Under the pieces are notes generated by a model that worked only from the letters and a program-made list of their open reading frames with translations, searched no databases and was not told the origin of the DNA. The position numbers were made by a program, and so were the translations under genes. A stretch of 64,000 bases of DNA from Psychroserpens ponticola (GTDB lineage: Bacteria; Bacteroidota; Bacteroidia; Flavobacteriales; Flavobacteriaceae), in the NCBI RefSeq assembly GCF_023556315.2, contig NZ_CP116221.1:992001-1056000 (forward strand), written 5' to 3'. Below are positions 6,203 to 19,017 of the stretch, one piece after another (positions within the stretch are counted from its first letter, which is position 1; each line of letters opens with the position of its first letter).

Positions 6203-8137
6203 ATGAAGCACATTTTAGTTGTAGCAACATTTAGTATATTACTTTTTGCTTGCGGAACTTCCAAAAGCGACATTAGTGACTTAGCTTATAAAAACCCTGT
6301 AGCTGCATCAATTGATTTAACTAAAGTTGTAGATGATAAAGCTCCTGTAACTATAAATCCAGGCCGCTTCATATTAGATACAGTGATTTATAGAATGCCC
6401 AGAATTATTCAAGGCAGTTATGCTGTTGAAGATTTTGGGAAATATATTGAAGATTTAAAGGCCTTTGATTATAGTGGAACTATTTTGCCTGTTGTTAGAA
6501 TAAATGATAACACCTGGCAAATTGCTAATGCAACACGATTAGATAAACTAGAATACTTAGTTAATGATACATTTGACCTTGAAAATCATGCGAATTCTAG
6601 AGAAGAAATACCTTTTTCACCTGGAGGAACTAATATTTCACCAGAAAATTATGTATTGAATTTACACGGATTTATAGGTTATTTTGATGCACTTAAAAAT
6701 GCACAATATACATTAGATATAACAGCACCAGCAATTTTTGAACGTACATCAGCATTGCAAAGTACCAACTTAAAATCTAGTCCTGATGGCACAAAAATTA
6801 CAACAAGTTATTTTGCGCCTCGTTATTTTGACATCACTGATAATCCAATGATGTACGGTAACTTAGATGTTGAAGAATTTATGGTTGGAGATGTTAAAAT
6901 TGTTTTAAGTGTGTATTCGCCAAATAGTAAACATAAAGTATCGACTTTGAAAGCTACTGTTTCTAAAATGATGGAAGCTCAAATAGCGTATTTAGGAGAT
7001 ATGAATGCAACATCACGCTATGATATTTATTTGTATTTAACAGATAGGAGCGAAGGTCAGCCCAAAGGTATAGGCGCATTAGAACATCATACTTCAACAG
7101 TTGCCGTTTTGTTAGAAAATAGTACTGAAGAACGTTTGGCGAAATCTGTAATTGATATTGTTGGACATGAGTTTTTTCATATTGTAACACCTTTAACTGT
7201 ACATTCTGAAGATGTGCACTATTTCGATTATAATGAGCCAACCTTTTCTAAACATTTATGGATGTATGAAGGCGTAACTGAATATTTTGCGCAGCATTTT
7301 CAGGCGTATCAAGGTTTGATTACATCAGAAGATTATTATAAAGTAGTGAATTCAGAAATTCATAGGTCTAGAGGTTATTACGATGATGAAATGAGTTTTA
7401 CTGAAATGAGTGAGAATATTTTAGAAGAACCTTTTAAATCAAATTATGGTAACGTATATGAAAAAGGACCTTTATTAGGAATGTGTCTGGATATTTTATT
7501 GAGAGAAGAAAGCAATGGGAATAGAAGTATGCTTAGCTTAATGAAAGAATTATCAAACATATACGGAATAGAAAAACCGTTTAAGGATGATTTACTAATT
7601 GATGAAATTATTGATATGACATACCCTTCAATTGGTGAGTTTTTTAAGACACATATAGTTGGTGCAACTCCAATAGATTATAGCACATTTTTAGAAAAAG
7701 TTGGTTTGACCTTTGAAGAAACACGTGTTGAAATAGGGCTAATACAATCTGGAGCTGGATCAGTTTTCGAGGCAGATAAAGACAAAGGAATTGTGTTTTT
7801 CTCTTCTAATGTTAAAGATAATAGCTTTTGGGTGAAAAATGGTGTCAATGAAAATGATATTGTTAAATCTGTAAATGGAAAAGCAGCAACTATCGAAAAT
7901 GCTAGGGTTATTTTAATACAACTTTATGGTGCAAAAATTGGAGATGATATTCATTTGGTTATCGATCGCAATGGAGAAGAAATTATTATAAAAACAAAAT
8001 TGACTCAAGCGTATTCCACTAAAAAGAATATTGTAGAAAATAGCAAAGCTACTTCTGCTCAAATTAAGATTCGTAAAGCTTGGTTAAATAATGCTTCAAA
8101 TACAGAAATGCTTGATGAAAAAAGTAAATCCGAATAA
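6203..8137 (+). CDS. M61-type metallopeptidase lipoprotein with PDZ domain
   Basis: The ATG at 6203 gives a lipoprotein signal (MKHILVVATFSILLFAC, Cys17), so I prefer it to the TTG at 6167. The mature protein of 644 residues contains the gluzincin motif HEFFH (residues 322-326) and a downstream WMYEG with Glu356 as probable third zinc ligand. This matches the M61 glycyl-aminopeptidase family. The C-terminal ~110 residues (GIVFFSSNVKDNSFWVKNGV, then NDIVKSVNGK) look like a PDZ domain, as usual in this family. It is predicted to be anchored in the outer membrane or periplasm and to process peptides. It stands alone, divergent from a glycosyltransferase and convergent with the DUF2400 remnant. 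Confidence 0.85.
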   Translation: MKHILVVATFSILLFACGTSKSDISDLAYKNPVAASIDLTKVVDDKAPVTINPGRFILDTVIYRMPRIIQGSYAVEDFGKYIEDLKAFDYSGTILPVVRINDNTWQIANATRLDKLEYLVNDTFDLENHANSREEIPFSPGGTNISPENYVLNLHGFIGYFDALKNAQYTLDITAPAIFERTSALQSTNLKSSPDGTKITTSYFAPRYFDITDNPMMYGNLDVEEFMVGDVKIVLSVYSPNSKHKVSTLKATVSKMMEAQIAYLGDMNATSRYDIYLYLTDRSEGQPKGIGALEHHTSTVAVLLENSTEERLAKSVIDIVGHEFFHIVTPLTVHSEDVHYFDYNEPTFSKHLWMYEGVTEYFAQHFQAYQGLITSEDYYKVVNSEIHRSRGYYDDEMSFTEMSENILEEPFKSNYGNVYEKGPLLGMCLDILLREESNGNRSMLSLMKELSNIYGIEKPFKDDLLIDEIIDMTYPSIGEFFKTHIVGATPIDYSTFLEKVGLTFEETRVEIGLIQSGAGSVFEADKDKGIVFFSSNVKDNSFWVKNGVNENDIVKSVNGKAATIENARVILIQLYGAKIGDDIHLVIDRNGEEIIIKTKLTQAYSTKKNIVENSKATSAQIKIRKAWLNNASNTEMLDEKSKSE

Positions 8138-8143
8138 GGTTTT

Positions 8144-8404
8144 TTAAAAGCCTTCAAATACACCTAAACCAAATAAAGCAAAATCGTATTTGGTAGGATC
8201 AATTGCATCTAATTTGCGAAGAGAGATATCTAATTCAGCTAAAGCCTTACCATCATTTTGTTTGCGTTTTAGTAATCCTAATTTACGAGCTACATTACCA
8301 GAATGCACATCTAAAGGACAAGATAGAAGTGAAGGGTTGATGTGTTTCCAAATCCCAAAATCCACACCATTTTGATCTTGTCTTACCATCCACCTCAAGT
8401 ACAT
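8144..8404 (-). pseudogene. 3' fragment of host TIGR02757/DUF2400 gene, cut by the element
   Basis: This 86-codon frame carries the C-terminal third of the TIGR02757 (DUF2400) family, including SCPLDVHSGNVARKLGLL and KYDFALFGLGVFEGF. It starts exactly at the attachment core (8403-8409). The remaining 174 codons of the same gene lie 9.5 kb away at 17893-18416. Joining the two across the 7-bp core restores an in-frame gene reading KRFN|MYLRW. By hand count 67 of these 86 residues are identical to the complete copy at 15038-15802. A stop codon lies just upstream of the first ATG in this frame, so any product would be a fragment with no N-terminal domain. Confidence 0.9.
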
Positions 8405-8409
8405 GTTGA
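8403..8409 (-). repeat. Attachment site, integrase side (core ATGTTGA)
   Basis: The 7-bp core is shared with 17893-17899. The host DUF2400 3' fragment lies to its left and element DNA to its right. The serine recombinase gene ends 27 bp away (stop at 8436), which is the usual place for an integrase beside its att site. The true crossover is probably the central dinucleotide within this core. Confidence 0.8.
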
Positions 8410-8435
8410 TGCATATAAATTATGCAGCATAGTAT

Positions 8436-10166
8436 TTAATCAAAATGAAGCAATTCCTCTTTGTTAACTCTTATAGGCATACTGTGATGTTTGTAGAACT
8501 TATCAAAGTATTCATTAAAATTGGCATCTGATTTTAGGAAGTGTTTATTAGAAGACTTATACCCCTTCCAAACATTTAGACCTTCAGCATATTCATAAGA
8601 TTCAAGAGTATTTTCATAATTAACACATGCAAATCTGTCTAACTGTTGGGTGGCAGCATAAGATATATGTTCTTGAAACCCTTTATATTTAATTCTAAAG
8701 ATGAATCTGCCATTCTTTTTTAGCGGTCGGTATTCAACATCAACACGTTCTATAAGCTGTTGTACAGCTAGTTTAATAGCTTCAAATCCAGCGTTGAGGT
8801 TGAAACCCTCTATAGTTCTGTTAACTCTATTTAAGCGGTTGTTATCGGTTTGTATTTTCAATTCAGATTCAACTTGTTCCAAAGATTCTTTATACGAAAC
8901 AACTTTGTTTTTTGTTTCTTTGTATTTAGCTTTTAACCTAGTATCATCTGATAAATCATCGTCACCAAACAACAAATTAAACGCTTTTGTCTCTTGTTTT
9001 TCTGCTGTCTTAATCTTACTCTTTAACTCATTCTTTTTAAAAGTTAACGTATCTATTTCAACAGTGTCAACTTCAATGTTATTGAGATGTTTCTGAAGGT
9101 CTTTGCTAAGGAATAAATGCTTAATGATGAACGTTTCAAAACGAGGAATATTAAAACCTTTGCTGGTTTTACAAATATGAAGTGGTGCTTGTTTTCCAGA
9201 ACATATATACTGATTCCGCCTATCGGATAATCTCCTTTTGCCTTTGTACATCTTACTACAATCATGACAATAAATCAGACCATTCAATAAGTATTTGTAA
9301 ATAGGTTTCTTGCCTGATTTAGTCCTTTTGTTTTTTTTCAAATTCTCCTGGACTTTATCGAATTCATCTAGTGTGACTAAAGCTAGATGTGGCAACTCTA
9401 TTTCTTCCTTATTCCAAACATGGAAACCAGCATATAACTTTTTCTTTAAGATTCCATGTACTGTTGAACCCCACCAAACCTTATTCTTTTGTTTAACTTT
9501 TCTACCAGTACTCGAATCTATGGTGGTGGTGCTTTTATCAAGTGTAGCAAACCTTGTTGGTATATTCAAATCATTTAATTTTTTGGCAATGCTATATACC
9601 CCTAAACCCTCTAATGACCATTTAAATATATCTTTGACTACTTTTATCTCATTAGGCTCATGTATCATATAACCATCTTCATCTTTAGTAATTCCATATG
9701 GTCTTATGCCATGGACTTTACCTTTAAGAGCATTACGATAGAATGCAACCTTAACAGCATCAGAAGTTTTATCAGAATGCATTTCATTAAATATGGATAG
9801 TAAGTTTGCCATCGCTCTATTGGTTGTTGAATCAAGGTCATAAAATTTGCCATCAGGAAACCATTGAACACCAGCATTTAGAACTGTAGAAACGAAGTAA
9901 CGCCATGTATCTGGATTCCGTTCTATTCTGTCTTGATGTATTGCAAATACATGTGTGATTTTTCCAGATTTAACATCACCAATAAACCTATGAAACTCAT
10001 CACGAGCAATAATATCTGCTTTACCAGAAACATTTATGTCTTTATAAACCTCATAAAGCATGCCCATTTCATTTGCGAAACCAATACCACGTTCTTCTTG
10101 ATATTCTATACTGGTGTCTTTTCCTTCTTCTTTATCACCAGAAATTCTACAATAAATTCCAACCAT
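8436..10166 (-). CDS. Large serine recombinase (integrase)
   Basis: The protein has 576 residues. The N-terminal catalytic domain opens with MVGIYCRISGDKEE, where Ser9 is the expected nucleophile and Arg7 belongs to the active site. HVFAIHQDRIERNP supplies further family-typical arginines. A recombinase (Pfam 'Recombinase') domain follows at about 150-270 (KGKVHGIRPYGI; WWGSTVHGILKKKLYAG). A zinc ribbon has Cys300, Cys303, Cys322 and Cys332. A charged, probably coiled-coil stretch spans about 365-430, as in phage-type large serine integrases. It is located at the element end next to the att core, transcribed toward it. It should catalyse attP x attB integration into the DUF2400 gene. No separate directionality factor was recognised. 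Confidence 0.93.
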   Translation of the reverse strand: MVGIYCRISGDKEEGKDTSIEYQEERGIGFANEMGMLYEVYKDINVSGKADIIARDEFHRFIGDVKSGKITHVFAIHQDRIERNPDTWRYFVSTVLNAGVQWFPDGKFYDLDSTTNRAMANLLSIFNEMHSDKTSDAVKVAFYRNALKGKVHGIRPYGITKDEDGYMIHEPNEIKVVKDIFKWSLEGLGVYSIAKKLNDLNIPTRFATLDKSTTTIDSSTGRKVKQKNKVWWGSTVHGILKKKLYAGFHVWNKEEIELPHLALVTLDEFDKVQENLKKNKRTKSGKKPIYKYLLNGLIYCHDCSKMYKGKRRLSDRRNQYICSGKQAPLHICKTSKGFNIPRFETFIIKHLFLSKDLQKHLNNIEVDTVEIDTLTFKKNELKSKIKTAEKQETKAFNLLFGDDDLSDDTRLKAKYKETKNKVVSYKESLEQVESELKIQTDNNRLNRVNRTIEGFNLNAGFEAIKLAVQQLIERVDVEYRPLKKNGRFIFRIKYKGFQEHISYAATQQLDRFACVNYENTLESYEYAEGLNVWKGYKSSNKHFLKSDANFNEYFDKFYKHHSMPIRVNKEELLHFD

Positions 10167-10605
10167 AAATAATATTTACTTTAAAGATAATTAAATAAAT
10201 TAATTGTAGAGTTAAGGCTGCTTAAAACATTTGCTCTAGCACGTATCCGCTAGAATGATTCTACGGTAGGACACTTCCTCTTATTATCCTAAAAACCCAA
10301 GTTCTCATTGCGCTAACTGTATATGGCCAACAACGTATCGCACCTTGCTATGTATATATAGGTGCTCCCTCTCGATTGCAAACCGACCTATATTTAATTT
10401 GTGCACCATTTACAAGTATTTAAAAGAAGTGTGTCATCTGCGGTTCACCTTTATTTTACTGGAAATTAAAATTTTTTTCTAAAAATGTGTGTCACAGGTG
10501 AACTTTTAGGTTTTCGATGATATTTAAATTATAGAGGGTTGTAATTAACATCTCTTTATATGGGACAATTATGTTCAAATAACAAATGCACTAAATATAA
10601 ATATT
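10167..10605. other. Non-coding region between integrase and rep; candidate origin/regulatory region
   Basis: These 439 bp hold no ORF I can support and separate two divergent genes. Visible structure: a hairpin at 10247-10266 (CCG-C-TAGAAT, 1-nt centre, ATTCTA-CGG); a direct repeat GTGTGTCA at 10429-10436 and 10487-10494; and an 8-bp inverted repeat GTTCACCT (10443-10450) / AGGTGAAC (10496-10503). The repeats sit just upstream of the Rep-like gene. They could be Rep-binding or nicking sites, or a promoter/operator pair. This role is inference from position and symmetry only. Confidence 0.45.
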
Positions 10606-11271
10606 ATGAAATATGAAACAATTAAAAAGTTTACTAAATCAGTTAATAAAAGTAGAAGTTCTATCTATCGTTTTTATGTTAAACGTCCTGACCTATTTAC
10701 TGAAACGAAACTCCAAAACAGAAAAAGGTTAATTCCTGAATCACACCTAAAATATTTTGATATTGAAATTATGCACGATGAGTATAATCAAGTTTGTAAT
10801 GAAAATAAAAGTATGCGTAACCTCATCGATGGTTTAATGGATAAAGATTCATTGTGTAAAGAACTATGGTATATGCCTTGGTCATACTTTGTAACAATTT
10901 CCTATAAATTAGATAGAGACCAAAAATCTTGTAGTAGGCTGATAAGAGCATTAAATGATGACCTTGTAGAAAGATATCCAGAAACAACAATTAGAATGTT
11001 TTTCACAACAGAAACTTATAATAATCGTAATGGTCATCACAACCATTTAGCCTTATATGTTGGGGATGAAAGTTTACACTTAGATGTTATACAAGATATT
11101 CTACAATTCTTTTCTTTTGATAGAGTGGATTACGGAAAGTACGACCCATTTAAAGCTGGACTGTTTTATATGAGCAAAGATGGATTGGTTAATGAAGATT
11201 GGGATTTATTTGGTAACGACATAGAATTAAAAATTAAAAATGAAAATACGAGTCACACAACAACAGTTTGA
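10606..11271 (+). CDS. HUH-endonuclease Rep-like replication initiator
   Basis: The protein has 221 residues and shows the three motifs of rolling-circle Rep proteins in order. Motif 1 is FVTIS (95-99). Motif 2 is GHHNHLAL with the metal-binding pair His145 and His147. Motif 3 is YMSK (188-191), where Tyr188 would be the nicking tyrosine and Lys191 the partner. An N-terminal segment (TKSVNKSRSSIYRFYVKRPD) looks like a helix-turn-helix. No helicase domain is present, so the host helicase would be needed. Its upstream region holds inverted and direct repeats. It probably nicks and replicates the excised circular element. The family assignment rests on motifs, not on overall similarity; a mobilisation relaxase is an alternative. 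Confidence 0.65.
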   Translation: MKYETIKKFTKSVNKSRSSIYRFYVKRPDLFTETKLQNRKRLIPESHLKYFDIEIMHDEYNQVCNENKSMRNLIDGLMDKDSLCKELWYMPWSYFVTISYKLDRDQKSCSRLIRALNDDLVERYPETTIRMFFTTETYNNRNGHHNHLALYVGDESLHLDVIQDILQFFSFDRVDYGKYDPFKAGLFYMSKDGLVNEDWDLFGNDIELKIKNENTSHTTTV

Positions 11272-11365
11272 ACTGCTAATAAAGAACATGCACCTAATTA
11301 AAGGCTTACAACTTACTATGAGTGGTAAAACCGCTAAACGGGTGTTGCCTAAAAAGCTAGATTAA
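11240..11365 (+). CDS. Short hypothetical protein overlapping the end of rep
   Basis: A 41-codon ORF (MKIRVTQQQFELLIKN..., ending PKKLD) starts inside the last codons of the Rep-like gene, in another frame, and overlaps it by 32 bp. The composition is basic. The overlap would allow translational coupling. No family was recognised; it may be chance. Confidence 0.35.
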   Translation: MKIRVTQQQFELLIKNMHLIKGLQLTMSGKTAKRVLPKKLD

Positions 11366-11373
11366 TCTTCATG

Positions 11374-11436
11374 TTAGCGTATCAAAATCCAAAGTGTATC
11401 ATTTTAAATCTATTAACACATTAAATGATACGCTAA
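11374..11436. repeat. Inverted repeat between convergent genes
   Basis: A perfect 11-bp inverted repeat, TTAGCGTATCA (11374-11384) and TGATACGCTAA (11426-11436), is separated by 41 bp. A related 'TGTATCATTTT' occurs at about 11395-11405 and 11441-11451, so the motif is also directly repeated. It lies between the rep cluster and the convergent surface-protein gene. It may be a weak bidirectional terminator or a binding site for an element protein. Confidence 0.5.
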
Positions 11437-11449
11437 TAATGTATCATTT

Positions 11450-13846
11450 TTAGTCTTTGATTATTTTTATTACAGTAGTTATAGAATCAAAAGATAGTTC
11501 AAGAAAATAAACTCCTGAATTCAATGATGATAAATCAATGCGACTACTATGCTGTAATGTAATAACTTCCTCTCCTAATAGATTGAATATTCTAATTTTT
11601 GTATTAGTGTTACCGTTGTGAATAAAAAGGTGGTTTGTCACAGGGTTTGGATAAACTTTAAGACCATCCAATTCATTATCGACTAAATCTAATGTTGAGC
11701 AATCTAAACCATCATCCGTAATAGTCCAATTAAAGTCATTTATAATTGAATTTCTTGCATTTTCTCCATTACAATAGTTTGATAACCCCCCATCGAAGAG
11801 TACATTAGTTTGTAGATTTTGCGACGCCCATCCTATTAATATACTATCATAGATTGATGTTGAAAGTTCCACTCCTTCAAACATACGATTCATATCTTGA
11901 ACATTAGAAACATCCCAATCTCCTATATTTTGGTTAAATGATAAAGCAGTATCAAACATTCTAGCCATAGTAGATACAGTGCTTGTGTCCCAACCTCCTA
12001 TATCTTGGTTAAATGATTCGCATTTATAAAACATTGAAGTCATATCTATTAAAGAGGTTGTATCCCAACCTCCTATATCTTGGTTAAATGATTCAGCTAA
12101 AAAAAACATTAAGTATGTAGTTGTGACAGTGCTTGTATCCCAACCTCCAATATCTTGGTTAAATACAGTTGCGTTAGCAAACATTCCCGCCATGTCTTGA
12201 ACATTAGAAACATCCCACCCTCCAATATCTTGATTAAATACATCAGTAAAACTCAACATATTTCTCATATCTGTAACAGTTCCTGTATCCCAACCACCAA
12301 TATCTTGGTTAAACGCTCTAGCCCCAGTAAACGTAGAATTCATACCTATAACAGAGCTTGTGTCCCAATCTCCAATATCTTGGTTAAATACAGTAGCATC
12401 TCGAAACATAGAATTCATATTTGTAATGGCGCTTGTATCCCAACCACCAATATCTTGATTAAATGTATTAGCACCGTTAAACATATTCTGCATACCTGAA
12501 CCTATAACAGAGCTTGTGTTCCACCCTCCAATATCTTGGTTAAATGCATTAGCACCCCTAAACATTGATTCCATATTAGCAACCGAGCTTGTATCCCAAT
12601 CTCCAATATCTTGATTAAATGCACTAGCACCACTAAACATTGATTCCATATTTGTAACCAAATTTGTATCCCAACCACCAATATCTTGATTAAATGTATT
12701 AGCACCGCTAAACATATTTCTCATACTTGTAACCGAACTTGTGTCCCAACCTCCGATATCTTGGTTAAAAGATTGACGACCAGAAAACATAAAACTCATA
12801 CTTGTAATGGTGCTTGTGTCCCAGTTTGAAATATTGCCATAAGTAGCTTCTGCCAAATTCGTTTGAGTAAACCACAAACTAACAGCAGCGTATATATTGC
12901 TGTCAGTAATAGGAGTTAAAGGGCAGTCCAAACCACCATCTGTAATATTCCAATTAAAGTCATTTATAATAGAGTTTCTTGCTGTTTCTCCATTACAGTA
13001 GCTTGATACCCCCCCTTCGAAGGGTACATTAGTTTGCAGAGTTTGCGATGCCCATCCGATTAATATACTATCATAAATTGATGTAGAAAGTTCCACTTCG
13101 TCAAACATGAAACTCATATCTTGAACATTAGAAACATCCCAACTACCTATGTCTTGGTTAAATGAGTAAGTAGCATCAGGGTCAGTAAATTCGTCGAAAT
13201 AGAATTGAAACATTCTACTCATATCTGTAACGGAGCTTGTATCCCAACCTCCAATATCTTGATTAAAAGCTCTGGCATCAGAAAACATTTCACTCATATT
13301 TGTAACAGAGCTTGTGTTCCAACTTCCTATATCTTGATTAAAAGTAAAGCACTCACCAAACATATATGTCATATTTGTAACTGAGCTTGTATTCCAACCT
13401 CCTATATCTGGAATAAAGCCACCCGAAAAGATAAACATTCCACTCATATCTGTAACGGAACTTGTGTCCCAACTTTCAATTCCTAAAGCTATGGCACTAC
13501 TTTCAAACATAAAACTCATATCTGTAACCGCGCTTGTATTCCAACTTCCAATATCTTGATTAAATGATTCAGCATTCCGAAACATATCACTCATATCCGT
13601 AACGGAGCTTGTATCCCAATTACCAATATCTTCGTTAAATGATTCAGCAAATAAAAACAACTCACTCATATCTGTAACCGAACTTGTATCCCAGTTTGAA
13701 ATATTGCCATAAGTAGATTCTGCCAAGGGCTGGTCAGAAAGCCACAAATCAACAGCTTCGTTTATGTTGGCGTCAGTAATGGGTGTCTGTGCTTGTAGAA
13801 AAGTAATTGTGAATAATAATATTAATGTAGCTAATAAATTTTTCAT
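11450..13846 (-). CDS. BspA-like surface protein with T9SS type A sorting domain
   Basis: I chose the ATG at 13844-13846 ([20 protein letters not shown], a clear signal peptide); an in-frame upstream ATG gives a poor leader. The 798-residue product is built of ~25-residue repeats of the type [20 protein letters not shown], the BspA/DUF285 'bacterial surface protein' repeat. There are two blocks. Each starts with a 'PITDxNIxxAVxLW' segment and ends with a '[14 protein letters not shown]' plus '[11 protein letters not shown]' cap, showing an internal duplication. The C-terminal ~75 residues ([14 protein letters not shown], then [11 protein letters not shown] and SGVYFLEL) are a type A T9SS sorting signal. 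It is probably an exported adhesin-like cargo of the element. No enzyme motif was seen. Confidence 0.88.
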
Positions 13847-13968
13847 ATTGATTAATTCAAAGTTATTTGATGTGGTCTTATAAGTCACTAAAAACATGTA
13901 AATTAAACAAAATTATTAAATATTATTAAAGGTTTCCCGTAATACACAATTACTAATTAATAGATTAA

Positions 13969-14010
13969 AACTATAATAATTGTAATTATAATAGTTTTTA
14001 GCTATATTTG
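13969..14010 (+). promoter_or_regulatory. Promoter with overlapping palindrome upstream of the small resolvase
   Basis: A Bacteroidota-type promoter is visible: TTG at 13980-13982, a 20-bp spacer and TATATTTG at 14003-14010, 18 bp before the start codon. A 28-bp imperfect palindrome (13969-13996, arms AACTAT/ATAGTT, 12 of 14 positions paired) covers the -33 element and part of the spacer. Binding there by the resolvase or another protein would repress the gene; it could also be a res site. Confidence 0.5.
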
Positions 14011-14028
14011 ATATGTAAATTTTAAGAT

Positions 14029-14655
14029 ATGGAAATAGCATTAATCATTAGTAGGTGTTCTACTACCGAGAGTAAACAAGATGTTACTCGTCAGAGTGAA
14101 GAGTTGAGGTGTAATTATGGTAACACTTACCAAATCATTAAGGAGTTTAGCTACTATAAAAGTGGAACTAAAAATGATGCGGTTAATGATGATATATTGG
14201 AATATGCTATTACCAACAATGTGAAGCACATAATAGCATCAGAAACATCCAGGATATCACGTAAAATATCATCATTTGCCTTGTTCCTAGAGAAGTGCAA
14301 TGAAAACAAAATAAATATTATTATCGACAATTATAAGCTACATACACTGCTTGAAAATGGAGAGGTGAATGGCATGGTCCAAACGATGCTAAGTATTGCA
14401 TCTACCTTTGCTATGGCTGAATTAAGATTAATTAAGAGTCGTCTTGATAGTGGTAGAGCCAAATATATTAAAGAAGGTGGTAAGCTTGGTCGTAGAGTAA
14501 ATTCCACAAAAAATTCCAAACAATTATTGACCGAGCATTCAGATATCGTAAAGTTTGTAAAGCAGAATCAGTCCATAAGAAACATAATGACCCTAACGGG
14601 TAAGTCTAGCGGTACAGTTCAGAAAGTCCGAAAACTGGTGTTAGAACCTGCTTAA
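14029..14655 (+). CDS. Small serine recombinase (resolvase/invertase family)
   Basis: The protein has 208 residues. Its start, MEIALIISRCSTTESKQDVT, carries the family signature with Arg9 and nucleophile Ser11. HIIASETSRISRKISSF matches the conserved 'SRLSR' helix. A long helix (about 120-145) leads into KSRLDSGRAKYIKEGGKLGRR, the usual linker. The C-terminus (SIRNIMTLTGKSSGTVQKVRKL) is a helix-turn-helix, so length and layout match resolvases and DNA invertases rather than integrases. It may resolve multimers of the circular form or act as a regulator. Two short ORFs follow on the same strand. It is clearly distinct from the 576-residue recombinase at the element end. Confidence 0.85.
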   Translation: MEIALIISRCSTTESKQDVTRQSEELRCNYGNTYQIIKEFSYYKSGTKNDAVNDDILEYAITNNVKHIIASETSRISRKISSFALFLEKCNENKINIIIDNYKLHTLLENGEVNGMVQTMLSIASTFAMAELRLIKSRLDSGRAKYIKEGGKLGRRVNSTKNSKQLLTEHSDIVKFVKQNQSIRNIMTLTGKSSGTVQKVRKLVLEPA

Positions 14656-14677
14656 TTAAATATAAAAAATTGCTAAT

Positions 14678-14827
14678 ATGATAATGTACAAAGGGAAAAT
14701 ACGAATAGAGGGTGTTGGAACGGCAGTTGAAGTTTCAACCTCAGCAAGTAGTCCGTCTTCAGCTAAGAAAATCATCGAGAATCTTTACCGAGTGAAACAT
14801 TGGGTGAAGCAAATGAGCAGATATTAA
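14678..14827 (+). CDS. Short hypothetical protein in the resolvase cluster
   Basis: A 49-codon ORF (start MIMYKGKIRIEGVG; a second ATG lies at 14684) begins 22 bp after the resolvase stop on the same strand. It has a basic C-terminal helix (SSAKKIIENLYRVKHWVKQ), suggesting a small nucleic-acid- or protein-binding factor. No family was recognised. Tight spacing to both neighbours supports an operon. A recombination directionality factor is conceivable but unproven. Confidence 0.45.
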   Translation: MIMYKGKIRIEGVGTAVEVSTSASSPSSAKKIIENLYRVKHWVKQMSRY

Positions 14828-14845
14828 AAATAAATATTATAAAAA

Positions 14846-15004
14846 ATGAATACACAAGAATTAGCAAACGTGATTAGAGTATTGAATGATAACATTGTAG
14901 GACTTACCGATGAAATAAATTATTTAAGAAATGATTTAGAGAAAAATATTGAAGAAGGTGAAAAATTAAGATTTAGATTATCTGAATTAGAATCTACCTT
15001 ATAG
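14846..15004 (+). CDS. Short coiled-coil hypothetical protein
   Basis: A 52-codon ORF starts 18 bp after the previous small ORF. The product (MNTQELANVIRVLNDN..., ending RLSELESTL) is acidic, almost wholly helical and has heptad spacing of Leu/Ile typical of a coiled coil. No homologue was recognised. It probably belongs to the resolvase transcript and is followed by the convergent DUF2400 copy. Confidence 0.5.
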   Translation: MNTQELANVIRVLNDNIVGLTDEINYLRNDLEKNIEEGEKLRFRLSELESTL

Positions 15005-15037
15005 ACAAAAGCTTTATTAAAAATAATAGAGTAATCA

Positions 15038-15802
15038 TCAAAACGCCTCAAATACACCCAACCCAAATAATGCAAAGTCGTACTTTACAGGGTCCATCGA
15101 GTCTAATTTACGTAACGATGTATCAAGTTCAAGTAAGGCTTTAGCATCATTTTGCTTTCGTGTTAATACACCTAGCTTTCTGGCAACATTACCAGAATGC
15201 ACATCCAAAGGACACGACAGAATTGACGATGGAATAGTTTTCCAAATCCCAAAATCCACACCAGAATTATCTTTTCTAATTAACCACCTGAGCATCATAT
15301 TTATTCGTTTACATGCCGAACCTTTATTTGGGTCACCAACATGTTTTTGGGTTCTTACTTGATGGTCCAATGAAAAGAATATTTGTTTAAACTCATGAAT
15401 AGCTGGTTGGATACTATCCTGAGTCACATTCTTCTGGAATATAGACTCCATGCCACCATAATTAGTATATATATTATTTAGAGCTTTAATGAAATATTTA
15501 AAATCTTCTGCATTAAACGTACGGTGAACAAAGCCATCGAATTTATCTAAGTCCGAATCTTTATGATTCATAATAAAATCGAATGGTGAATTACTTAATA
15601 ACTGCATCATCCTGTCAGCGTTTTTAATTATCATTTTACGGTTTCCCCAAGCGATGGTAGCTGTTAGAAATGCAGATATTTCAATATCTTCTTTTAACTG
15701 GTAACGATGTGGTATTTGGATAGGGTCACTCTCAATAAACTTTGGGTTATTGTATATTGATACTTTGGATTCTAGGAATTCTTTTAGTTCGGATTGAATC
15801 AA
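15038..15802 (-). CDS. Complete TIGR02757/DUF2400 family protein carried by the element
   Basis: This 254-residue protein aligns over its full length with the two fragments of the split host gene. Shared blocks include ESDPIQIPH, FLTATIAWGNRK, FVHRTFN, SCPLDVHSGNVARKLG and KYDFALFGLGVFE. It lies inside the element in the same orientation as the broken gene, so it can replace its function. At the position of the host integration core (host codons CGC TTC AAC ATG) it reads CGA ATA AAT ATG, which destroys the core. The family has no established function. The pattern PLDVHSGNVARKLG, after an N-terminal FLTATIAWGN helix, loosely resembles HhH-GPD DNA glycosylases; this is my inference only. It is a divergent homologue, not a recent copy of the resident gene. 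Confidence 0.9.
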   Translation of the reverse strand: MIQSELKEFLESKVSIYNNPKFIESDPIQIPHRYQLKEDIEISAFLTATIAWGNRKMIIKNADRMMQLLSNSPFDFIMNHKDSDLDKFDGFVHRTFNAEDFKYFIKALNNIYTNYGGMESIFQKNVTQDSIQPAIHEFKQIFFSLDHQVRTQKHVGDPNKGSACKRINMMLRWLIRKDNSGVDFGIWKTIPSSILSCPLDVHSGNVARKLGVLTRKQNDAKALLELDTSLRKLDSMDPVKYDFALFGLGVFEAF

Positions 15803-15857
15803 TTATCAAATTATTTTTTATGGATGTTTTATAGCTATTGAAAATTTAACAAGTTAG

Positions 15858-17645
15858 CTAATCTCTTATACAGCGTACAGACATACCATAATTTTGTGGA
15901 TATTGGCCCCCATAGAAGTCATCATGAAATGTCGATAATAAATGAAACCAATTGTGCTGAGGATTCATATTGTCCAACGTAGAACTCCAAAACCAACCCG
16001 ATTTTCCTTTTAAATTAAAGACAAAGCCATTAGTTCCGTCGACTAATCCAGCTGGAAGACCAGTAAAACCACTACTGTTGGTAGCACCTGTGTTTTCTAA
16101 ATCCCATAAAGACGACGTGCTTTTTAATTTACCTCCCGCTTCAGAAGCCCCTCCTAAATATTCACTTAAAACTTCCCACTCTGTGTCACTTGGTACATGC
16201 CAACCTTCAGGAGCTAAACCTCGTGAGTCATTTACTGCGTAGGCGTTGTATAATTTACCATAAACTAAACCGTTTGTAGAATTATTAGCATAATAGCACC
16301 AAGCGCCTGTAGTAAGGTTTGACCAAGTTGTTAGGTCTGTTACTTGTGGGATAGGGTCACCATTTCGATACATACTAACATCAAGGTTTTTTAACATCCA
16401 TTCTTGTGTCCCTATAACCACCGTTTCTATATCGTTATTTACAATTACTGCATTCCCAATACCGGTGCAACCAGCTTCGTCTGAAACTGTAACTGTATAA
16501 GTTCCTTCTGTTAAATTAGTTATTGAATTGTTGGTGCTTCCATTATTCCATAAATAAGTATAGGGCGGCTGTCCGCTAGAAATTATTGCCGTTGCACTAT
16601 TACTAGTAGTGGTTGTGGTAACCTCTAAACATTCCCTTTGCAGTGTAACATAGCGACATGTAATGCATCCATTGGCGTCTCTTAAACAAACTTCATAACC
16701 ACCATCTTCGTAATTATTAGGGAATATTGGGTAAGTTCTAATCTCTGTTTCAACCAAATAAAGATAAGGGCTTATACCTTCATTAATATCTTCTATCACA
16801 ATTGTTCCATCATATTGCATTACTGGTGTAAACGCAATAAAAGTTGCAGAACAATCAAATGGTGTGAGATTTGGCGTTGGGTCTTCTTCTGAAGTAACTG
16901 GGTTTAATATAGGTGTATCTTCAGGGTAAGGTAAATCCGAAGGTAAAAGCTCTGATGAAAAGGCATCTGAAGGTATGAAAGCTGAAGCTATTGCTAAAGC
17001 GAATGTAGTCGCTATTAATGGAGCTGCAATTGCCGCAGCTGCAACTGTTCCTATTCCTGCAAATATACCTATAGTAACTCCGCCTGCGATAGCACTTCCA
17101 GCTTCAACAATAAGAATACCAGATAACAAAGCTCCAATATTCCAACCTACATCAGAAGAAAATCTATTCTCACTATTAAAAGGAGTTTCCAGATTTACTC
17201 CATAAATAATCTCAGAGCTATTATTGCTCCAATCATATTGATGAAAAGAAACGCTCATATGAGTATTACTAGGATAGTCATATTTTATAACAACATCCGA
17301 TTTCACCCCATTAACCGAGGTGTAAGCATTAGTAATTCTACTTGTTAATGGGTCAACAATTAAATTTACAATAGTATCGTTATTAACCTTTTGATACGTT
17401 AGTGTATTTATCGTCGTTGGATTATTGTCTCCATCAAAATGACCATAAAAATTAAAAGTCCCATTAGAATCTTTATGTTGTGCTTGTAATGCATCTGCAT
17501 TAAAATCGCCAGTTTGATTCTTATAAACAGTTAAATTAGAGTTTGTTGATTCATCAGTACTATCAGTACTATCATCTTTTGAGCATGATAGAACTATTAT
17601 AAAAATTGAAATTACTAATAATGCTAATCTAAATAATTGCTTCAT
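15858..17645 (-). CDS. FISUMP-domain lipoprotein with SprB-like repeat
   Basis: The protein has 595 residues. A lipoprotein signal ends at Cys21 (FIIVLSCSKDDSTDST). Residues ~30-160 are of unknown fold. About 167-225 is a long Gly/Ala-rich hydrophobic stretch (SAIAGGVTIGIFAGIGTVAA), unusual in a surface lipoprotein and possibly membrane-inserting. About 340-405 resembles a SprB/PKD-like repeat (PPYTYLWNNGSTNNSITNL). About 408-595 is the Fibrobacter succinogenes major paralogous (FISUMP, TIGR02145) domain: GTQEWMLKNLDVSMYRNG, APEGWHVPSDTEWE, GMSVRCIRD. It has no T9SS C-terminal domain, so anchoring is by lipid. It is the last gene before the att site and a probable surface cargo of the element. 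Confidence 0.85.
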   Translation of the reverse strand: MKQLFRLALLVISIFIIVLSCSKDDSTDSTDESTNSNLTVYKNQTGDFNADALQAQHKDSNGTFNFYGHFDGDNNPTTINTLTYQKVNNDTIVNLIVDPLTSRITNAYTSVNGVKSDVVIKYDYPSNTHMSVSFHQYDWSNNSSEIIYGVNLETPFNSENRFSSDVGWNIGALLSGILIVEAGSAIAGGVTIGIFAGIGTVAAAAIAAPLIATTFALAIASAFIPSDAFSSELLPSDLPYPEDTPILNPVTSEEDPTPNLTPFDCSATFIAFTPVMQYDGTIVIEDINEGISPYLYLVETEIRTYPIFPNNYEDGGYEVCLRDANGCITCRYVTLQRECLEVTTTTTSNSATAIISSGQPPYTYLWNNGSTNNSITNLTEGTYTVTVSDEAGCTGIGNAVIVNNDIETVVIGTQEWMLKNLDVSMYRNGDPIPQVTDLTTWSNLTTGAWCYYANNSTNGLVYGKLYNAYAVNDSRGLAPEGWHVPSDTEWEVLSEYLGGASEAGGKLKSTSSLWDLENTGATNSSGFTGLPAGLVDGTNGFVFNLKGKSGWFWSSTLDNMNPQHNWFHLLSTFHDDFYGGQYPQNYGMSVRCIRD

Positions 17646-17795
17646 AATATCTTACATTTAGAGTGTTAGGTATATTCTAAAGATATAAAAAACGAATTAA
17701 TATGATAATAAAATTGGGTAATTATCGTTCATTCAATTGATTTAATAAAAAATAAACTTAAACACTCTGAATATAGTTCTATTTATATCACTTTC

Positions 17796-18416
17796 TTATA
17801 AGTTATGAGTATTGCATATGCATAGCTTATAATTATTCCTAAAAAGAATAAAGAACATTAACAAGTAAGCAGTACTTATTAAACGTAAAAAAATGTTGAA
17901 GCGTTTTGCTGCAGAGTTTTTTAAAGGATCACTAATATGTTTTTGTGTTCTTTGCAAATGATTAATCTCAAAAAAATGGGATTTAAATTGATGAATTGAA
18001 TACTGAAGGGATTGCTCTTTAGTATTCTTAGAAAACACAGCTTCTAATCCGTTATGATTTTTATAAATATGTTTTAAACTTTTTATAAACTGAATAAAAT
18101 CATGTCCATTAAAAGTGCGATGTACAAAGGTGGATAGTTTTTCTAAATCTGATTCTTGATGGTTGGTAACAAAATCGTAAGGAGATTGTTCTAAAAGCTG
18201 CATCATTTTATGAGCATTTTTAATAATGCTTTTTCGATTTCCCCAAGCAATGGTAGCTGTTAAAAATCCAGCGATTTCAATATCTTCTTTTTTAGAAAAC
18301 TGATGAGGAATTTGTATTGGGTCACTCTCAATAAATCTTGGATGATTGTATTGTATTACTTTTTCATCAAGAAATCCTTTGATTTCTTTTTTAGATAGTT
18401 TTAAAGTTTTGGCCAA
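17796..18416 (-). pseudogene. 5' fragment of host TIGR02757/DUF2400 gene, reading into the element
   Basis: The first 174 codons (ending KRFN at 17895) are the N-terminal two thirds of the DUF2400 family protein: ESDPIQIPHQF, GFLTATIAWGNRKSIIKNA, FVHRTFNGHDF. At the att core (17893-17899) the frame enters element DNA and adds about 32 foreign codons (LISTAYLLMFFILFRNN...) before a stop at 17796-17798. The C-terminal third lies at 8144-8404. The host promoter is kept, so a truncated protein with a hydrophobic tail may still be made. It starts 12 bp downstream of ridA's stop, so both probably share a transcript. Confidence 0.9.
17893..17899 (-). repeat. Attachment site, distal side (core ATGTTGA)
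   Basis: This is the second copy of the 7-bp core. Host DUF2400 sequence (5' part) lies to its right and element DNA to its left. Together with 8403-8409 it fixes the element boundaries and permits in-frame reconstruction of the target gene. Confidence 0.8.
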
Positions 18417-18428
18417 AATAGTGTTGCG

Positions 18429-18809
18429 TTATTTTACAGCAATCATGCTAATTTCAACATTAACAAATTTTGGTAAATTAGCAACTTCAACGGTTTCACG
18501 TGCAGGAGCTGTATCAACATTAAAATATTGAGCGTATACTTCATTTATTTGAGAAAAATTATGCATATCGCTGATAAAAATAGACGTTTTAATCACATTG
18601 TTAAACGTCATTTCGGCAGCTTCTAATACAGCTTTTAAATTTTCCATAACCTGTTTGGTTTCATCTTGTATAGAACCCATAACAAGTTCTCCAGTATCTG
18701 CGTCTAATGCAATTTGGCCAGAAGTATATAATGTGTTTCCTGATAAAATAGCTTGGTTGTATGGTCCAATTGGTGCTGGTGCTTTTGTAGTGTTTATGAT
18801 CGTTTTCAA
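18429..18809 (-). CDS. ridA: RidA/YjgF family enamine/imine deaminase
   Basis: The protein has 126 residues, the normal length of the family. Family features: APAPIGPYNQAI near the N-terminus, LYTSGQIALD, and TAPARETVEVANLP, which contains the conserved arginine that binds the carboxylate of the substrate. RidA hydrolyses reactive 2-aminoacrylate and related enamines made by PLP enzymes, protecting cytoplasmic enzymes. It lies just upstream of the split DUF2400 gene on the same strand, so insertion of the element may also affect the end of this transcript. Confidence 0.93.
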   Translation of the reverse strand: MKTIINTTKAPAPIGPYNQAILSGNTLYTSGQIALDADTGELVMGSIQDETKQVMENLKAVLEAAEMTFNNVIKTSIFISDMHNFSQINEVYAQYFNVDTAPARETVEVANLPKFVNVEISMIAVK

Positions 18810-19017
18810 AATAGAATGGTATTTAAATGTCTGAAACGAAATTAGTAAAAGTATAAAGAACCTGTAGAGAATTTGTTAAATTTTCTATGAATAACACTTT
18901 TGGAAACAATTGTTCAAACTAATTTAATATGGTTGATTTTTAGTTGTAATCGATAATGCCTATTGGTTGATTTAACTATTTAGTATATCTTCACTTTTTT
19001 TATGAATAAATTTTAAA

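Follow-up and report, generated by a model that had tools for sequence, protein, structure and literature searches.

The window analysed here, a 64,000-nt stretch of the single-contig, 4.03-Mb genome of Psychroserpens ponticola, contains a 9.5-kb element (positions 8403–17899) that interrupts a DUF2400/TIGR02757 gene after codon 174. Both pieces of the host gene, placed by profile matches and the junctions, lie on the minus strand. The N-terminal 174 codons (17893–18416) belong to an open reading frame of 206 codons (17796–18416) whose last 32 codons are read from the element. The C-terminal 86 codons (8144–8404) lie 9.5 kb away, as the initial annotation had described. The pieces cover complementary parts of the profile model (1–151 and 148–227), and the N-terminal fragment groups in trees with genes of its own genus.

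Both breakpoints carry ATGTTGA, identified as the attL core (17893–17899) from the matching junctions in P. burtonensis, Lutibacter flavus and a further genome (G419) and as the attR core (8403–8409) from the sequence match between the breakpoints. Joining the flanks at this motif yields one open frame of 260 codons (174 + 86), which agrees with the earlier reading. The 7-bp match is weak on its own because ATGTTGA occurs four times on the plus strand of 8001–18500. Strong support for an insertion comes from the joined flanks, which align without gaps to the intact genes of three relatives, as expected of an empty site, together with the recurrence of the same breakpoint in four further genomes (P. 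burtonensis, L. flavus, G419 and G021).

Adjoining attR is a gene for a large serine recombinase or integrase of 576 amino acids (8436–10166, minus strand), with resolvase, recombinase and zinc-ribbon domains according to Pfam, NCBIfam and PHROGs. PF00239 and PF07508 score above their cut-offs and PF13408 reaches 22.4 bits against a cut-off of 25.3; the P. burtonensis homologue exceeds the cut-offs for all three. With this domain architecture and a match to the PHROG 95 integrase (E = 7.5e-80), the protein can be assigned to the large serine recombinases. The putative att sites are likewise of the serine-integrase kind, with a short core, distinct attP and attB arms and no long direct repeat. 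The two halves of a near-palindromic attP, both with approximate limits, are a P arm (17869–17892), recognized by its dyad matches with the P′ arm (14/28 in the window and 18–21/28 in three relatives), and a P′ arm (8410–8435), recognized by the similarity between five P′ arms (18–22 pairwise matches over 30 positions, the last five of which fall in the core; 0–25 of 20,000 shuffles were as good). The attP arms are common to the elements, including that of G021.

The cargo includes an 815-amino-acid DUF285 repeat protein with a Por secretion tail (11450–13897, minus strand) and a 595-amino-acid protein with a Fib_succ_major (FISUMP) domain and an SprB repeat match below cut-off (15858–17645, minus strand). 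The plus strand encodes a 221-amino-acid protein without a family match in profile searches (10606–11271), a small serine recombinase of the resolvase/invertase type (208 amino acids; 14029–14655) and a 52-codon frame with a weak YabA-like Pfam match (14846–15004; E = 0.0037, below cut-off). An open reading frame at a similar position to the 221-amino-acid protein in P. burtonensis has a REP_ORF2-G2P match below cut-off. Relaxase or conjugation genes had no match in the seven proteins of the window's element searched with Pfam, five of which were also searched partly with NCBIfam and PHROGs, and the 221-amino-acid protein resembles a rolling-circle Rep by eye only. Phage structural genes had no match in the seven proteins (Pfam) or in five of them (PHROGs), so that the window's element does not appear to be a temperate phage.

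The complete DUF2400 gene within the element

Between the 52-codon frame and the 595-amino-acid protein, and in the same orientation as the host pieces, lies a full-length DUF2400/TIGR02757 gene of 254 codons (15038–15802, minus strand; TIGR02757 226 bits against a cut-off of 139, DUF2400 292 bits). It is 78% identical to the host C-terminal piece, which fits the 67 of 86 residues counted initially. This gene and the two host pieces are the only three TIGR02757 matches in the genome at E ≤ 0.001. Neither junction rebuilds the target, as the host frame enters the element for 32 codons only and the other piece begins at the core; no gene end is supplied in cis. The window's element and those of three relatives instead carry, at a distance from the junction, an entire gene of the target's kind. 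The initial annotation had proposed a complete replacement of the target, and the gene is indeed full length; profiles, identities and the tree make it a homologue from a lineage other than the host's. A recent duplication of the host gene was considered and rejected, as N-region identity between the two is 60%, below the identity to genes of other genera. A PDB sequence search returned nothing at E up to 1 and a profile search returned insignificant matches only; a predicted structure of the copy had a mean pLDDT of 42 and was not used.

Across elements, the copies share 60–75% N-region identity with the fragment in their own host and fall into two groups that merged in none of 200 bootstrap trees. 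Their closest chromosomal genes are 73–78% identical, which makes them Flavobacteriaceae chromosomal in type, and the window's copy resembles those on genus g84 chromosomes more closely than it does the copies of the other three elements. The copies of L. flavus and G419 are 85% identical (N region) and their integrases 57%; such disagreement between copy and integrase histories is as expected if the pairing had been renewed instead of simply inherited. In the tree, the two Lutibacter-genus copies share a broad branch with Lutibacter genes, and would thus be distinct from the host group but not clearly foreign to it.

The copies look to be under purifying selection (dN/dS 0.09–0.15 where computable; pN/pS 0.14 for the window's copy against that of genome G394). 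Decay is not clearly evident in the N-terminal host fragments (dN/dS 0.037–0.154, compared with 0.046–0.121 for intact pairs); the insertions may therefore be too young for a long-term dependence to be visible. The residue after a conserved Asn-Met is Met or Trp in four of five element-type copies; in the 50 intact genes readable at this position, of 52, it is Phe or Tyr in 44 and Met or Trp in six. Because the nearest chromosomal kin of the window's copy (G311, G105 and G267) already carry Met there, recoding of the internal copy at the attB position is unproven.

Recurrence and fate of the insertion in relatives

Elements with a large serine integrase of this family, inserted at the same codon of the target and containing a complete copy, are also present in P. 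burtonensis (14.5 kb), L. flavus (39 kb) and G419 (34 kb), in line with the prediction of other elements that have both a DUF2400 copy and a serine recombinase. G419 belongs to the same genus as L. flavus, and in it the whole element is inverted, copy included. In all four genomes the copy is located within the att-bounded segment, close to a small serine recombinase. Among 61 genomes of two genera (23 + 38), integrase matches at E < 1e-200 occur in exactly the four that have an N-fragment, a C-fragment and a full copy. An uninterrupted gene in relatives had also been anticipated, and 20 of the 23 genomes of the window's own genus hold exactly one TIGR02757 match, which is full length; the relatives showed neither a split without an insertion nor an empty site at odds with the joined fragments.

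Farther afield, the integrase was found in its own genome only among 395 genomes of the order (E ≤ 1e-120), and in its own genome and G176 only among 299 family genomes (E ≤ 1e-60), the genomes searched being samples of the family. No match was found in plasmids (E 1e-40) or phages (1e-30), and viral contigs held one 25% relative. A scan of genome contigs for relatives relied on two short peptide patterns, with which diverged relatives would be missed; it did not return G419. Two distant integrase relatives (G016 and G176) interrupt yifB/comM without bringing a second copy; each of these genomes has one DUF2400 match, outside the yifB/comM element.

At two loci the target has fared differently. 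In G021 the same site is occupied by an element that supplies the 3′ end, completing the gene in cis with the host N-terminal part kept. In G394 a host fragment with a 44-codon deletion lies beside an element-type full copy, the only intact gene there, and the locus looks like a fossil composed of a decayed host fragment and an element-type copy. It is possible, but not proven, that this copy is a hybrid (best split P = 0.012; 20 of 300 shuffles were as good).

The target had been called a conserved gene. Though common, it is not indispensable, since 29 of the 397 family genomes lack a DUF2400 match (12 of 330 among near-complete ones) and some genomes (G289, G355 and G437) have apparently broken genes without a full copy; its loss may therefore carry only a small cost.

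A gene broken and probably replaced in trans

We consider it likely that the locus reflects site-specific integration in which the copy, with its putative function, replaces the whole target protein in trans. The 9.5-kb segment would be an integrated mobile element, and its large serine integrase would have joined a near-palindromic attP to an attB located at codon 174, thereby cutting the host DUF2400 gene in two. The full-length gene from another lineage would be expressed and substitute for the broken one, and integration into a conserved gene would hence cost the host little. Were the element to excise precisely, the host gene would be intact again; alternatively, the host fragments may decay and leave the element's copy as the only one, as the single locus in G394 suggests. 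We infer that the copy removes the fitness cost of integration because the copies seem to be under purifying selection and stem from two lineages, and because of the 3′-end repair in G021 and the locus in G394.

It is improbable that DUF2400 serves the DNA metabolism of the element itself, the match to the target being a coincidence or by-product. Homologues do occur in 14 phage and five plasmid records. Some Bacteroidales phages have distant DUF2400 genes; in the two inspected, these lie amid genes for replication and recombination, have no annotated integrase in their vicinity and show no link to integration. A pattern search of viral contigs gave 383 matching stretches, none of which was confirmed as DUF2400. 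Yet every one of the four elements with this integrase has a copy, whereas those of the distant relatives that target yifB/comM are without DUF2400, the copies are of chromosomal and not phage type (best identity to a phage homologue 42.5%), and G021 meets the same problem by repairing the 3′ end.

The insertion could also be an attack rather than damage control, if disabling the host DUF2400 (for example, a harmful DNA-repair-like activity) benefited an element whose own version is tolerant. That no copy duplicates the gene of its own host would suit this account, as would the weak HhH-GPD-like similarity of a phage homologue (E = 0.074), but no result pointed to host DUF2400 acting on the element, the N-terminal part is kept in G021, and the affinity of the window's copy to genus g84 leaves no element-specific type evident; we think it very unlikely. 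The small serine recombinase near the copy might indicate that some other insertion split the gene and that the intact copy arrived on its own, within a nested element or an adjacent one. We give such independent events hardly any credence, given that the copy lies inside the att-bounded segment in four genomes and was once inverted along with the whole element. An assembly error or chance frame break is scarcely conceivable in a single-contig genome with gap-free empty sites and recurrence in three other genomes.

Replacement in trans would give mobile elements another means of occupying a conserved protein gene, by bringing the whole gene, besides choosing dispensable targets or repairing the gene end. 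Because the rescue gene stems from another lineage, each insertion would swap the host's version, and the element would drive horizontal replacement of a conserved gene; the G394 locus suggests that the swap can outlast the element. More tentatively, and with some doubt, we propose that an integrase lineage specialized on one conserved protein gene has more than once acquired complete versions belonging to other lineages and that the element spreads by forced allele replacement, breaking the resident gene, substituting its own and becoming difficult to shed after the host fragments have decayed and its version is left as the only copy. If true, bacteria would have a natural drive-like strategy of ‘break and rescue’ that acts on a protein gene. 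Any genome collection can be scanned by the underlying rule, which is to check whether an insert contains an intact version of the gene that it splits. The integrase, together with its near-palindromic attP, an attB whose place in a conserved gene is defined, and the rescue gene, is a candidate integration tool for Bacteroidota.

Relation to known systems

SCC in rlmH, SXT in prfC and islands in guaA restore the gene end on integration, one end being supplied in cis at the junction. Target function would similarly be kept here after entry into a conserved gene, and the G021 element is of that kind; the window's element differs in that the whole gene appears to be replaced in trans.

Streptococcal integrative and conjugative elements share a large serine integrase, insertion within protein genes (rumA, hsdM and mutT) and very short direct repeats; their insertions disrupt or alter the target, and the available part of that report, in contrast to what we find in the window, mentions no complete replacement gene (PMC4701971). 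Phage WO sr1WO disrupts a magnesium chelatase gene, with no replacement described in the part of the account at hand (PMC9203015), and resembles our two control elements, in which a serine recombinase splits a conserved YifB/ComM-like protein gene. In a literature search judged mostly by title and the start of the abstract, we found no protein-gene precedent for replacement of a whole target in trans.

The initial annotation had inferred such replacement, which the comparison of genomes supports; as a principle it is already known for tRNA genes. In the tRNA-dependent lysogeny of mycobacteriophages, as the available sections of the report describe it, a tyrosine integrase enters a tRNA gene and the tRNA has been experimentally proven to be needed for lysogeny (Guerrero-Bustamante and Hatfull, mBio 2024, PMC10865867). 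The related phage Boilgate rebuilds the gene at the junction (PMC10865867), much like the cis repair in G021. The window's element would work in the manner of tRNA-dependent lysogeny, outside the narrow class defined by a tRNA target and a tyrosine recombinase: here a protein-coding gene is cut mid-frame by a serine integrase, the element has no recognized phage genes, and the case is known from comparison alone. On our best reading, the system would be a protein-gene counterpart of phage tRNA-dependent lysogeny.

A split DUF2400 gene and its uninterrupted counterpart

The host DUF2400/TIGR02757 gene of Psychroserpens ponticola lies in two minus-strand pieces within the window (G000:C1:992001-1056000, from a single-contig genome of 4.03 Mb): an N-terminal piece of 174 codons that ends at 17893, and a C-terminal piece of 86 codons at 8144-8404. 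Between them, on the same strand, lies an intact, element-borne homologue of 254 codons (15038-15802). ATGTTGA is present at both breakpoints, and fusion there produces an open frame of 260 codons; the split gene and the complete internal homologue described in the initial annotation were thus both seen. By itself the 7-base repeat is weak evidence because it occurs four times on the plus strand of 8001-18500, and the case rests on genome comparisons.

The two pieces and the full copy are the only TIGR02757 matches in this genome at E ≤ 0.001. Exactly one match occurs in 20 of the 23 genomes of the genus, with three in the genome of the window and in Psychroserpens burtonensis DSM 12212, and two in a further genome, G021. 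Alignment across the junction is gap-free between the window's joined flanks and the uninterrupted genes of G004, G011 and G006, and likewise between the joined P. burtonensis flanks and the genes of G017, G018 and G003; relatives thus do have the intact gene that was sought in them. Across the family sample, 368 of 397 genomes have a match (318 of the 330 near-complete ones) and 9 of 397 have more than one (our count from the listing); the gene is therefore common and normally single-copy, but not indispensable. The sole DUF2400 match in G437, from the genus of Lutibacter flavus, is a C-terminal piece containing a stop (L069:1212-1475), which reflects either decay without replacement or an assembly gap.

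Recurrence, attachment sites and cargo of the element

Further elements that pair a DUF2400 copy with a serine recombinase, as the initial annotation had predicted, were found in three genomes. P. burtonensis has the gene order of the window: C-fragment, large serine integrase, cargo, small serine recombinase, full DUF2400 and N-fragment. Lutibacter flavus DSM 27993, found by an integrase scan of named genomes, has the C-fragment, integrase, full copy and N-fragment across approximately 39 kb. In G419, found by searching 38 genomes of the L. flavus genus, the integrase lies towards the N-fragment and the copy, in reverse orientation, towards the C-fragment, so the whole element is inverted. 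The integrases are 71% (P. burtonensis), 74% (L. flavus) and 55% (G419) identical to that of the window. Among the 23 and 38 genomes of the two genera, exactly these four have an integrase match with E below 1e-200, exactly these four have both fragments and a full copy, and G016, from the genus of the window, has the only remaining match at E ≤ 1e-50. A 299-genome family sample added only a distant relative in G176, and a 395-genome order sample, searched at a stricter E limit, added no integrase.

All four elements have their junctions at one and the same codon. Five P′ arms, including that of G021, are pairwise identical at 18-22 of 30 positions, the last five being within the core, and 0-25 of 20,000 shuffles agreed as well. 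When the P arm is folded onto the P′ arm, dyad matches occur at 14 of 28 positions in the window, 19 in P. burtonensis, 18 in L. flavus and 21 in G419 (112, 0, 0 and 0 of 10,000 shuffles as good, respectively), centred on AT. Given the known behaviour of serine integrases, an attP that is nearly palindromic around a self-complementary AT would permit entry in either direction, in keeping with the inverted element of G419.

Each of the four elements has a small serine recombinase near its DUF2400 copy (window 14029-14655; L031:14719-15348; L056:1546-2268; L067:4220-6348), and those of the other three are only 20-37% identical to that of the window. The cargo of the window's element is a DUF285 protein and a FISUMP protein, and two P. 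burtonensis cargo proteins have no defence match in PADLOC. The L. flavus element (L054-L056) encodes BrxC and PglX (cut at the locus end) and the G419 element (L067-L068) BrxL and PglZ, all with strong PADLOC matches and three of the four with Pfam matches too; the DUF2400 integration site can therefore house BREX defence cargo.

The distant integrase relatives in G176 (approximately 31% identity) and G016 (E 2e-54) both lie in yifB/comM, split at one place, model positions ~275-278 of 499 (L107:11106-13641 with L108:7443-8309; L033:6962-9504 with 18276-18974). Self-comparison of the proteins in the examined stretches revealed no second yifB at either locus, so, on a control of two, integrases of this broader group sometimes come without a copy of their target. 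A phage WO group with a serine recombinase is also described in a magnesium chelatase gene (PMC9203015). Just outside the displaced C-fragment of G419 is a YifB fragment (L067:1284-1598) that starts at model position 278, the cut place of the yifB-splitting elements, in a frame ending in a small-recombinase-like tail (identified by eye); it is probably a remnant of another insertion.

Two loci depart from this plan. G021 has in the same site a 10.9-kb segment (L032:1947-13611) with CusA/CzcA-type and CusB-type metal-efflux genes; its ORF list contains no integrase, and the genome has no integrase match at E ≤ 1e-50. The 3′ part of a DUF2400 gene at its left end completes the host N-terminal part, and the displaced 3′ end (95% identity across 265 bp) is on the opposite side, where it follows a P′ arm of the same type. 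The segment may be a non-autonomous element that relies on an integrase acting in trans. The second locus is in G394, which belongs to another genus: a host-type N-fragment that lacks 44 internal codons adjoins a full copy 82% identical to that of the window; the genome has no C-fragment match, and no integrase was seen among the ORFs of 16 kb at the locus. The other six genomes of its genus have one TIGR02757 match each. Up to approximately codon 200 the G394 copy is element-like, and its final part resembles its own genus; on 48 informative sites, 20 of 300 shuffles did equally well. Such a pattern would be consistent with recombination of an element copy with a displaced 3′ end.

Origin of the copies and selection on them

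A tree of the region before the breakpoint (62 rows, 167 columns) included 11 element or split-site sequences, 20 other genes of the genus, 9 of the 10 loci from the L. flavus-genus search (the tenth being G419's own copy) and 22 of the 28 close family loci L073-L100; its 200 bootstrap trees are not fully settled. The N-fragments of the window and P. burtonensis group among genes of their own genus, and those of L. flavus and G419 belong to a branch (95/90) in which the sampled Lutibacter genes are found along with other genes. The element copies split into two groups, one of the window and G394 (100/92) near genus g84, and one of P. burtonensis, L. flavus and G419 (99/73, not a starred branch) within the Lutibacter-holding branch; none of the 200 trees unites them all. 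On these groupings, the copies are clearly foreign to the host in the window, P. burtonensis and G394. Those of the two Lutibacter-genus hosts, 69% and 75% identical to the host fragments, are a distinct line whose origin outside that group is not clear. Between L. flavus and G419, identity is 85% for the copies (before the breakpoint) and 57% for the integrases, and the copy of the window stands apart from the others in a way that its integrase does not. Copy and integrase thus have no single shared history, and the pairing of a DUF2400-targeting integrase with a full DUF2400 gene seems to have arisen, or been renewed, on more than one occasion.

Copy dN/dS is 0.132 for L. flavus and G419, 0.091 for P. 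burtonensis and G419, and 0.147 for P. burtonensis and L. flavus; synonymous sites are saturated between the window and G394 copies (pN/pS 0.143). Eight intact host pairs give 0.046-0.121. N-fragments give 0.087-0.112 (window), 0.037-0.073 (P. burtonensis), 0.154 (L. flavus) and 0.111-0.119 (G419), and the C-parts of the window and P. burtonensis 0.020-0.073. Relative to intact pairs, the fragments show no clear relaxation in dN/dS; therefore either the insertions are recent or excision frequently restores the genes.

DUF2400 has no relative of solved structure detectable by sequence. Homologues in two Bacteroidales phages (L101 and L102) lie among replication and recombination genes; one is annotated by its depositors as N-glycosylase/DNA lysase, and a phage homologue has a weak HhH-GPD match (E 0.074, below the cut-off). 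A role in DNA repair would be a guess.

Probable replacement in trans and known systems

The anatomy of the element and its recurrence are shown. With a full copy between the split pieces here and in three further genomes, replacement of the whole target protein in trans, as the initial annotation inferred, is the best explanation and a probable one. The element may also work as a break-and-rescue drive.

Titles and the opening lines of abstracts, mostly outside subscription journals, yielded no published protein-gene case, which does not prove absence. In streptococcal integrative and conjugative elements with serine integrases, targets are described as disrupted (PMC4701971). The close conceptual precedent is tRNA-dependent lysogeny, in which the tRNA gene used as target is lost and a tRNA from the phage takes its place; a related phage instead rebuilds the tRNA gene at the junction (PMC10865867). 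Here, by contrast, the target is a protein-coding gene and the enzyme a serine integrase, and the present case extends the idea to both.
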